This document shows positions 18,292 through 21,573 of a stretch of 41,873 nucleotides of DNA, piece after piece. The stretch spans positions 1-41,873 of the forward strand of contig JAJYLV010000011.1 in NCBI GenBank assembly GCA_021787445.1, written 5' to 3'. Below the pieces are notes generated by a model that searched no databases, had not been told where the DNA came from, and saw only the letters and a list, made by a program, of their open reading frames with translations. The position numbers and the translations under genes were made by a program. The stretch comes from Chloroflexota bacterium. GTDB lineage: Bacteria > Chloroflexota > Limnocylindria > P2-11E. Each line of letters opens with the position of its first letter. Within the stretch, counting starts at the first letter, position 1.

Positions 18292-18786
18292 ATGACAGCG
18301 CCGCGCGGCCGCGTCTTCGAGGACTACACCGTCGGCACCGTGTTCGACCACCCCGTCGGTCGAACGATCACCGAGACCGACAACGTGTGGTTCACGAATA
18401 TCACGATGAACATGAACCCCGTGCACTTCGACGTGCACTACTCGTCGCAGACGGAGTTCAAGAAGCCGCTCGTGAACTCCTGCTTCACGCTCGCGCTCGT
18501 GACGGGCCTCAGCGTCGTCGACGTCGACCACGCCTTCGCGAACCTCGGCTGGGACGAGGTCCGGCTGCCCGCGCCGGTCTTCGTCGGCGACACGATCTAC
18601 GCGCGGAGCGAGGTCGTCGAGACCCGCGCGTCGCGCTCGCGGCCGGGGGCGGGGATCGTGAAGCTGCGGACGATGGGATTCAAGCAGGACGGCACGGTCG
18701 TCATCACGTTCACGCGGACGGTGATGGTCTACCGGCGCGGCCACGTTCCCGAGATCCCGCTCCCCACGCCGGCGGCGACGCCGTGA
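18292..18786 (+). CDS. MaoC-like (R)-specific acyl-CoA hydratase
   Basis: A 164-residue single hot-dog-fold hydratase. The catalytic motif region reads RTITETDNVWFTNITMNMNP followed by VHFD, giving the Asp and His pair of the family, and VFVGDTIYARSEV is the usual second-half strand. Members hydrate enoyl-CoA or mesaconyl-CoA. The upstream CitE-like lyase points to a malyl-CoA or methylmalyl-CoA type substrate. Its stop codon overlaps a GTG that can start the methyltransferase frame (GTGA at 18783-18786). Confidence 0.9.
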   Translation: MTAPRGRVFEDYTVGTVFDHPVGRTITETDNVWFTNITMNMNPVHFDVHYSSQTEFKKPLVNSCFTLALVTGLSVVDVDHAFANLGWDEVRLPAPVFVGDTIYARSEVVETRASRSRPGAGIVKLRTMGFKQDGTVVITFTRTVMVYRRGHVPEIPLPTPAATP

Positions 18787-19550
18787 GCGGGCGTGCCGAC
18801 CGTGGCCACCAGGTCCGCAGAACACGTGTCGGTCGCGTCATGGTCGTGACCCGGCACCCGCGCGCGGGGCGCGAGGTCCGCGCGTTCGGCGGGGCGGGGC
18901 TCTTCCGCGGAAAGGACGTGCTCGACGTCGGGACCGGGAACGGGCGGCTCGCGTTCGACGTCGCCGCGTACGCGCGTCGCGTCCTCGGGATCGACCCGAG
19001 CGACGAGAGCGTTCGCGCGGCCCGCGCGCGGGCGGAGACGGAGGGCATCCACAACGTCGAGTTCCGCGTCGGCGACGCCGCCGCGCTCGACGTCGGTCGC
19101 GAGCGCTTCGACCTCGCGCTCTTCTCCTGGTCCCTCTGATGAGTGCGCGTCAGGGGCATGGTCGATGCCCTTCGGTCGGCGCACCGGGCGGTGAGGCGGG
19201 GCGGGCTCGTCATCGACGCCCGGCCTGACCCGTCGCGGCAGCCGCGCATCGTCGCCGCCGGACGCGTCCGCGCCCAAGTCCGTCAGTCACCGAGCGCGGA
19301 TCTGCGTGACGAGAGCGCCGACAGCGCCGTCGCGAAGCTCGTCCGCGAAGGTCTCTACCGCGTCGTCCGCTCCGGCCACGTGTGGCACTCGGTGCGGTTC
19401 GCCGACCTCGCCGACCTCGACGCCTACCTCGCCGACAGCTCTCGCTACGCCGCGTACGGGAAGGAGATGCGTCCGAAGCTCCTGCCATTCCGGCGCGGCC
19501 CCCTCGACATGCGCCGCGCCATCGGCTTCGACGTCCTCGAGCGCCTTTAG
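18783..19550 (+). CDS. Class I SAM methyltransferase with two tandem in-frame UGA codons; candidate selenoprotein
   Basis: One continuous frame of 256 codons is crossed by UGA-UGA at codons 119 and 120 (19137-19142). Before them lie SAM motif I (DVLDVGTGNGRLAFDV), motif II (RVLGIDPSDES) and FDLALFSWSL. After them, in the same frame, lie MVDALRSAHRAVRRGGLVID and an intact C-terminal half ending DVLERL at TAG 19550. Both halves together make a normal-sized methyltransferase. The UGAs fall in the loop after strand 4, next to the substrate pocket. A SECIS-like hairpin follows at once (19143-19184). Start may be GTG 18783 or ATG 18840. Alternatives are a recent nonsense-mutated pseudogene or two separate polypeptides with restart at GTG 19143. 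Substrate unknown. Confidence 0.7.
19143..19184 (+). promoter_or_regulatory. SECIS-like hairpin directly after tandem UGA
   Basis: The outer stem is GTGCGC (19143-19148) with GCGCAC (19179-19184). The inner stem is AGGGGCAT (19152-19159) with ATGCCCTT (19165-19172), all paired with one G-U. The apical loop is GGTCG (19160-19164). The loop begins 17 nt after the second UGA and 20 nt after the first, inside the bacterial range, and contains the GGUC found in the E. coli fdhF SECIS loop. The stem lies within coding sequence, as bacterial SECIS elements do. Confidence 0.6.
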
Positions 19551-19608: not shown

Positions 19609-19658
19609 ACCGCACGGCGCTAGCGTGTCTCGTGCAGGGAACTGAGCGGGAGGGACGC

Positions 19659-20474
19659 ATGGCTGTTGAGCACGGCGCTGCCGTGGCGGATGACGCTGCG
19701 CCTCGTGAGGCGGTAGGCGTCTACGTGTACTCGATCGTCGAGAGCTCCGACCCGCGGACGTTCGGAAAGATCGGCATCGGCGGCCGCGGCGACGACGTCT
19801 ACACCGTGCACTACCGCGAGCTCGCCGCCGTCGTCAGCCACACGCCGCTCGTCGTGTACGACCCCACACGCGAGAACGCCCTGGCGCACGAGCACGTCAA
19901 CGAGGTGCTCATCGAGGCGGGCTTCACGCCGGTCCCGATGAGCTTCGGGACGATCTTCAAGACCGAGAAGGATGCGCTCGAGTTCCTGAAGGACACGTAC
20001 GACGCTCTCCGCGACGTCCTCGAGCGGATGAAGAACAAGCTCGAGTACGGGCTCAAGGTGAACTGGGATCGCGACGCCGTCCTCCGCGAGATCGAGGCGT
20101 CCAACGAGGAGATCGCGCGGCTGAAGGCGGAGATAACGAGCGATCAGCAGCGATCGACGTACTTCGCGCGGATGCAGCTGGGGCGGCTGGTCGAGCAGGC
20201 GCTGTCGGAGCGCTCGGACCAGTACGTGCGCGACATCTACGACGAGCTGCGCGACGCCGCCATCGCCTCGCGCTCGAACAAGGTCATCGGCGACAAGATG
20301 ATCATGAACGCGGCGTTCCTCGTCGCGCGCGATCAGGCGGAGGACTTCGACCGCAAGGTCCAGGAGGTCGCGAAGCGGCACGAGGGCAAGCTCGCGTTCC
20401 GCTACACCGGCCCCTGGCCCCCGTACAACTTCGTCACCATCCGTCTGCAGCTCGAACGGTCAGCGGGCGTCTAG
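19659..20474 (+). CDS. gvpF: Gas vesicle protein GvpF/GvpL (first copy)
   Basis: A 271-residue accessory gas vesicle protein of the GvpF/L family, needed in small amounts for nucleation of the vesicle shell. The family pattern is clear: VGVYVYSIVESSD, VHYRELAAVVSHTPL, AHEHVNEVLIEAG, VPMSFGTIFKTEK, an internal coiled-coil segment (about residues 130 to 175) and the C-terminal AFRYTGPWPPYNFVTIRL. ATG 19659 is chosen over GTG 19632 because GGGAGGG lies just before it. It opens a gvp run in which genes overlap or nearly so. Confidence 0.93.
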   Translation: MAVEHGAAVADDAAPREAVGVYVYSIVESSDPRTFGKIGIGGRGDDVYTVHYRELAAVVSHTPLVVYDPTRENALAHEHVNEVLIEAGFTPVPMSFGTIFKTEKDALEFLKDTYDALRDVLERMKNKLEYGLKVNWDRDAVLREIEASNEEIARLKAEITSDQQRSTYFARMQLGRLVEQALSERSDQYVRDIYDELRDAAIASRSNKVIGDKMIMNAAFLVARDQAEDFDRKVQEVAKRHEGKLAFRYTGPWPPYNFVTIRLQLERSAGV

Positions 20475-20797
20475 TGCTCTTCAAGCTTCTCACCCTCCCC
20501 ATCTCGCTGCCGGCGTCCGGCATCCGCTTCTGTCTCGAGAAGGTCGCGGAGGTCGCGGAGCACGAGCTGAACAGCGAGGAGCCGATCACAGAGGAGCTCC
20601 TCGAGATGCAGATCGCGCTCGAGGAGGGCCGGATGGACGAGCGCGCGTACGCCGCGCGCGAGACGGTCCTGCTCGCGCGGCTGCGTGAGGTCCGCGAGCG
20701 CCGGCGCGAGCTCGCGCGGGAGCAGGTCGAGGAGCGGGCCGTCGAAGAGGGCGACGGGTCGCGCGTCGTCATCGAGATACCCGAGGAGCTCCGGTGA
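20474..20797 (+). CDS. gvpG: Gas vesicle protein GvpG
   Basis: A 107-residue helical protein of the GvpG family, typically encoded between gvpF and gvpL and required for vesicle assembly. The N-terminal signature LFKLLTLPISLPASGIRF and the conserved middle EEPITEELLEMQIALEEGRMD are present. An Arg/Glu-rich coiled coil follows. The family start is unambiguous: GTG at 20474 overlaps the gvpF stop by one base. Confidence 0.92.
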   Translation: MLFKLLTLPISLPASGIRFCLEKVAEVAEHELNSEEPITEELLEMQIALEEGRMDERAYAARETVLLARLREVRERRRELAREQVEERAVEEGDGSRVVIEIPEELR

Positions 20798-21573
20798 GCG
20801 ACACCCTCGTCTACCTCTACGCGATCACCGGACCGGATGGCTCCCGCGTGCGTACGGCCGACGCCATCGAGGGGCGCGCCGTCCGCGCCCTCGAGGAGTC
20901 CGAGCTCGTCGCGCTCGTCTCCGACGTTCCCGCGAGCGGCTTCGAGCAGGCCGCGCTCGACGAGAACGTGCGGGATCCGCAGTGGCTGACGCCGCGCGCG
21001 GCCGCGCACCAGGCGGTGAACGCCGCGGCGCACGATCAGACCAAGGCCTCGCTCCCGGTCCCGTTCGGCACGATCTTCCGCGAGGACGAGCGCGTCCTCG
21101 AGATGCTGCGCGAGCGCGCGGCCGAGCTGAAGGCGCGTCTTGTGTCCGTCCGCGGTCGCGGCGAGTGGGTCATCGGGCTGTACCGCGACACCGTCCAGGC
21201 CGCCGAGCACCTCTCGCGCGTGGGCGAGGCGGTCGCGGGACGCGAGGCCGTCGCCGCCAGCGCGGGCCGCCGCTACCTCGAGGCGCGCAAGGACGAGACT
21301 GCGAGGCGCGAGCGGCTCCGGCGGCTGGACGAGGACGCGTCGGAGGCTTCGCACGCGGCCGTCGGACGCGTGAGCAAGCGCGCGTTCGAGGAGCCCGTCG
21401 TCCAGGACGCGGGAGACCTCGTCGCGCGCGCGACGTACCTCGTCCGCGGCGAGGACGAGGAGCGGCTGCGGGCGGCCGTGGAGCGCTTCAACGGTGAGTG
21501 GCACGACCGCGGCTACGAGCTCCGCGCGACCGGCCCGTGGCCGGTGTACCGGTCGAGCGGGGTGTCGCGATGA
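20794..21573 (+). CDS. gvpL: Gas vesicle protein GvpL/GvpF (second copy)
   Basis: A 259-residue GvpF/L paralogue with LVYLYAITGPDG at the N-terminus, SELVALVSDVPAS, LPVPFGTIFREDERVLEML and the C-terminal ELRATGPWPVYRSSG. It is clearly distinct from the copy at 19659, and bacteria usually carry such a pair. GTG at 20794 overlaps the gvpG TGA by four bases. The central helical region is Arg/Glu-rich. The pair with gvpG between them is the common bacterial gvpF-G-L order. Confidence 0.92.
   Translation: MSDTLVYLYAITGPDGSRVRTADAIEGRAVRALEESELVALVSDVPASGFEQAALDENVRDPQWLTPRAAAHQAVNAAAHDQTKASLPVPFGTIFREDERVLEMLRERAAELKARLVSVRGRGEWVIGLYRDTVQAAEHLSRVGEAVAGREAVAASAGRRYLEARKDETARRERLRRLDEDASEASHAAVGRVSKRAFEEPVVQDAGDLVARATYLVRGEDEERLRAAVERFNGEWHDRGYELRATGPWPVYRSSGVSR

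Follow-up and report, generated by a model that had tools for sequence, protein, structure and literature searches.

Prokaryotic selenoproteins have been grouped into 119 families in a 2026 inventory, none of which is listed with an adjacent Sec-Sec motif (PMC13188914). Among the methyltransferases in that inventory, the motif given for MduS (NCBIfam NF045649), a methyltransferase domain-containing double selenoprotein, is CxxU, and that of the UXPK-star and arsenite methyltransferase selenoproteins is UxxG (PMC13188914). For the decoding signal, the nearest comparison is the SECIS element of E. coli fdhF, a short hairpin just past a single UGA with GGUC at its loop. For the fold, the nearest comparisons are TleD (5gm1), AtmM (6uv6) and Desulfobacterota proteins with an SLHHQ motif, which have the fold and the SAM site in common with the protein described below. 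MduS was described by Haft and Tolstoy in 2025. A literature search for tandem or adjacent selenocysteines found nothing relevant.

The locus considered here lies in a window of 41,873 nucleotides of Chloroflexota DNA, which is the whole stretch that was analysed (Table 1). A first-pass annotation had proposed that one frame carries both halves of a class I methyltransferase with UGA UGA between them, and translation bears this out: TGATGA at 19137-19142 stands in frame as codons 119-120, and the frame runs on to a TAG at 19548-19550. Homologues have both the upstream and the downstream half of the frame in common. The product scores 70.8 bits against Pfam Methyltransf_25 (PF13649; cut-off 27), its AlphaFold2 model, built on a 51-row alignment, is a single confident domain spanning both UGAs (pLDDT 91.6, pTM 0.87), and Foldseek matches this model to 1xxl (E 9e-15), with class I methyltransferases, mostly acting on small molecules, as its neighbours. 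Domain and fold alike thus place the protein among the class I SAM methyltransferases. Coding constraint persists from the UGAs to the stop codon. The downstream part keeps a GC3 of 0.89 against 0.92 upstream, as the first-pass annotation had remarked of its codon use, over 135 codons and the stop rather than the 136 codons given there; compared with the nearest relative, 42 downstream changes fall at third positions against 25 and 17 at the other two, an excess that gives the pattern of translated sequence. Since a standard gene caller halts at the first UGA and splits or truncates the gene, such a family is easily overlooked.

Table 1. Positions of the features at the methyltransferase locus, numbered from the first letter of the window
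Feature	Position	Strand	Remarks
SAM-dependent class I methyltransferase gene with two in-frame UGA codons	18783..19550	+	255 aa; GTG start, TAG stop
First UGA, codon 119, predicted selenocysteine	19137..19139	+	UGA in 97/102 relatives, Cys in the remaining 5
Second UGA, codon 120, predicted selenocysteine	19140..19142	+	UGA in 75/102 relatives, Cys (TGC/TGT) in the remaining 27
Predicted SECIS core: six-pair stem GGGCAU/AUGCCC with loop GGUCG (19160-19164)	19154..19170	+	overlaps the GMVDA codons
Full hairpin as drawn in the first-pass annotation	19143..19184	+	outer arms 19143-19148 and 19179-19184 not conserved
Upstream MaoC-like hydratase gene, context only	18292..18786	+	Pfam MaoC_dehydratas, 81 bits

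Far from being one odd gene, the window gene belongs to a much wider family. In a survey of 29 genomes at the level of the order, most best relatives contained one or two in-frame TGAs; a sample of 400 genomes of the phylum gave a match in 49, nearly all with in-frame TGAs; and a scan of named genomes located members in Chloroflexota, Actinomycetota, Acidobacteriota, Planctomycetota, Armatimonadota and Gemmatimonadota. The pair states of 102 distinct relatives are UGA-UGA in 71, UGA-Cys in 26, Cys-UGA in 4 and Cys-Cys in 1, although members were found in part with a profile that holds both positions as Cys, so that relatives with other residues there may be under-sampled. The in-frame UGAs therefore align with Sec or Cys in homologues, which agrees with the expectation of Cys at these positions, except that the Cys-Cys form turned out to be rare. 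At least 19 changes of pair state are required on a tree of 93 members, which means that Sec and Cys have been swapped repeatedly. When 51 members are aligned, no columns are invariant except the SAM-binding GxGxGR and the two residues of codons 119 and 120. As judged from these alignments, the exchange pattern fits selenocysteine, not stop, Trp or Gly, and indicates that each UGA is a sense codon for which Cys can be exchanged.

Three genomes carry two family copies each (G027, G114 and G092; loci L028/L051, L058/L093 and L083), and the copies of G114, one U-C and one U-U, sit on distant branches of the tree. The sole Cys-Cys member (L103, 3177-3878) lies on a contig labelled Thaumarchaeota and lacks the stem of the hairpin; it may serve as a natural control, though the contig may be mis-binned.

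Like MduS, the family combines a SAM methyltransferase domain with two selenocysteines, but MduS is described by a 338-position model with CxxU, whereas the window family has adjacent Sec-Sec after strand beta-4 in about 255 aa. Membership in MduS was rejected: among the matches listed, three family members, with UU as their motif, reach 26-37 bits where the cut-off is 380, and their matches cover the Rossmann core alone. UXPK-star (NF047649, methyltransferase/UXPK-star double selenoprotein) and the arsenite methyltransferase selenoproteins (NF008823, NF041536 and NF041537) are likewise SAM methyltransferases with Sec, and as candidates they fared no better, the window protein scoring 39.9 bits against a cut-off of 460 for NF047649, 38.2 against 263 for the ArsM model NF008823 and 32.2 against 510 for NF041537. 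Members with a listed score thus fall far below the cut-offs of the NCBIfam seleno-methyltransferase models, and among the matches listed no NCBIfam selenoprotein model reached its cut-off. The predicted selenoprotein family is without a name in the 2026 review table, in NCBIfam and in the literature searches, and its Sec arrangement is absent from them.

The hairpin behind the second UGA was first drawn as 42 nt with an outer and an inner stem. This stretch (19143-19184) does fold as drawn, at -22.3 kcal/mol with z = -2.9 against shuffles of the same 42 nt, while the fold of a longer 71-nt stretch is unremarkable for such GC-rich DNA (z = 0.1); because significance varies with the length chosen, the single-sequence fold was not relied on. 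Conservation separates the two stems. The outer 6-bp stem GUGCGC/GCGCAC is confined to this gene and its closest relatives, so it fails as a family feature and was rejected as a part of the SECIS, distant relatives being without it. The inner pairs, 19154-19159 with 19165-19170, are all six intact in 99/102 relatives and covary, at a fixed distance of 11 nt past the second codon across the family, and the functional element is accordingly taken to be the inner hairpin. At that distance, GGGCATGGTCGATGCCCT is invariant in the order-level relatives that reach the site, with its DNA unchanged at protein identities as low as 38%.

Compensatory change is visible pair by pair. The stem pair counts are G-C 97/A-U 4, G-C 79/A-U 22, G-C 99/A-U 2, A-U 90/G-C 11 and U-A 99/C-G 2, and pairing is found in 99.3% of cells, compared with 93.5% after shuffling (0/2000 shuffles reach the observed value) and 26-59% when the arms are slid out of register. 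Between the Gly/Ser codon, at its first base, and the Ala codon, at its third, the counts are 79 G-C, 22 A-U and 1 A-C; where Ser replaces Gly (GGC to AGC), the Ala codon shifts silently from GCC to GCT, and a change of Met to Val or Ala is accompanied by the matching change on the opposite arm. In one relative (L064) the stem-loop reads AGUGUC-GGC-GACACU. Codon choice follows the stem as well, the Asp codon within it being GAT in 21/21 close relatives; over the rest of these genes GAT accounts for 96/365 Asp codons (p = 3e-12) and GAC is dominant. These covariation tests ignore relatedness, although the compensatory changes turn up again on separate branches. The comparison as a whole indicates that the stem-loop is maintained as an RNA structure across the family.

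The hairpin also agrees with the published rules for bacterial SECIS elements (PMC13188914, Fig. 2), a check proposed at the outset. Its apical loop of 5 nt and upper stem of at least 6 bp lie within the ranges of 3-9 nt and 4-16 bp, a G stands within the first two loop positions (GGUCG), and the loop begins 20 nt after the first UGA and 17 nt after the second, within the span of 16-37 nt. The 21-nt core folds at -11.3 kcal/mol, below the threshold of -7.5, which is passed by 100/101 Sec-bearing relatives. Loops of 3 or 5 nt occur in the family, with GUC, GUU, GUG, CGUGC and similar sequences. A search of 19090-19240 against Rfam at a lax threshold gave no match. Compared with fdhF, the GGUC of the loop is indeed common to both, and the distance of 17 nt from the second UGA is as first given, but the fdhF spacing was counted as 18 nt and is hence similar rather than identical. 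The further differences are that fdhF has one UGA and the window gene two, with a conserved plain six-pair stem and a loop of 3 or 5 nt.

The genome that carries the window gene, a 2.5-Mb draft in 185 contigs with the window as contig 31, encodes the selenocysteine machinery that the first-pass annotation suggested looking for: SelA (439.6 bits), SelB (338 bits), SelD (344 bits) and a tRNA-Sec with anticodon UCA, with selB adjoining selA. The selD gene (L019, C80:18446-19369) has an in-frame TGA inside, and SelD is probably itself a selenoprotein. Among genomes with a UGA-bearing member, SelA was found in all except G022, G122 and G308, all of them drafts. In G122, which holds a UU member (L056), there is no selA match and a partial selB match contains two TAA codons; the gap reflects either the assembly or decaying machinery. 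Since selA is common in the phylum (321/400 sampled genomes, 80%), co-occurrence of the machinery is consistent with selenocysteine insertion, weak alone and not decisive.

Taken together, the Sec and Cys states of the relatives, the covarying hairpin and the Sec machinery bear out the proposal of adjacent selenocysteines, and the gene very probably encodes a class I SAM methyltransferase selenoprotein with adjacent Sec119-Sec120, as far as sequence comparison can tell. In the proposed decoding, SelB and Sec-tRNA would bind the single hairpin, the first UGA would be decoded 20 nt before the loop and, one translocation step later, the second would be decoded 17 nt before it. Single-Sec variants have the hairpin at an unchanged position, which gives a spacing of 20 nt in the UGA-Cys form and of 17 nt in the Cys-UGA form, so that each spacing alone is used in nature.

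An alternative is that one UGA is efficiently read as Sec and the other mostly terminates, leaving a 118- or 119-residue fragment as the main product and the full-length protein as a minor or selenium-regulated one. It has in its favour that a single hairpin serves two UGAs, since successive recoding would be expected to multiply inefficiency. The same natural variants, however, place the hairpin at a workable distance from each UGA singly, the second position is Sec in 75/102 relatives despite Cys being an easy alternative, and coding constraint runs on to the stop, so that this alternative appears very unlikely. A local or global code change, by which UGA would specify another amino acid without any selenium, could account for frames that are open through UGA in many genomes. 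It is more improbable still, since family members that lack a UGA have Cys in its place and never Trp or Gly, neighbouring Trp is encoded by TGG, both the Sec machinery and a covarying hairpin of SECIS type exist, and the MaoC-like gene just upstream stops at a TGA, which overlaps the methyltransferase start as GTGA and agrees with the earlier statement that other genes here use UGA as a stop. A pseudogene or an assembly error, to which a draft genome might lend itself, has a negligible chance of being correct, since the same tandem UGAs recur in scores of independent genomes, some of them single-contig, which excludes faulty assembly, and since downstream change is biased to third positions.

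Under double selenocysteine insertion, a tandem UGA served by one SECIS offers a test of how SelB and the hairpin are recycled over two consecutive codons of one mRNA, and natural controls are ready in its UU, UC and CU versions, in which the hairpin does not move. The ribosomal insertion of successive selenocysteines and the function of a Sec-Sec pair in a methyl-transferring enzyme thereby become testable.

In the AlphaFold2 model the pair comes directly after strand beta-4. At this place the alignment has His-His in distant relatives, SLHHQ in the Desulfobacterota proteins and Leu-Cys-His in TleD; in TleD, AtmM and the SLHHQ proteins the residues at this pair or close to it are Cys-His or His-His, in contrast to Sec-Sec in the window protein. 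Because SLHHQ and Leu-Cys-His sit there, the selenium atoms can be placed beside the methyl-transfer pocket, and model and alignment together suggest that Sec-Sec faces this pocket, which supports the closeness to the substrate pocket proposed earlier. In RebM a role has been ascribed to His140/His141, on which this placement does not draw. In the Desulfobacterota relatives (L135, L138, L141, L143, L167 and L173) SLHHQ replaces SLUU, and these proteins are likely a non-selenium sister family, as their sequences suggest. The chances are about even that the family as a whole is an undescribed, multi-phylum one of selenoenzymes in which one SECIS recodes two UGAs and Sec-Sec replaces the pocket-side His-His, creating a new soft-atom or nucleophilic site.

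Three roles for the pair may be considered. The first choice, held tentatively, is a soft acceptor, such as a metal or metalloid, that the two selenolates would bind and keep in position while SAM methylates it; the window protein contains no Cys apart from the UGA positions and hence cannot supply a third thiol ligand from its own chain. No gene neighbour is conserved across the family in the neighbourhoods of 56 relatives and the window, where recurrence is seen within close relatives only and the MaoC-like gene was not found as a recurrent neighbour, and the metalloid idea is therefore without support from context. The second choice, a rather doubtful one, is that one Sec takes over from His as the base or nucleophile in the methylation of an organic acceptor. 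Third, and unlikely, a Sec-Sec or Sec-Cys bond might turn the methyltransferase on and off as a redox switch, the pair itself being non-catalytic. The vicinal arrangement of the pair, the existence of U-C and C-U forms and the lack of a further Cys as partner would suit such a switch, but the pair occupies the site of the relatives' His-His by the pocket, which favours binding or catalysis.

Soil MAGs are among the nearest named relatives of this Chloroflexota genome, in which gas vesicle genes follow immediately 3' of the methyltransferase gene (window 19632-21573), encoding GvpL/GvpF, GvpG and a second GvpL/GvpF.
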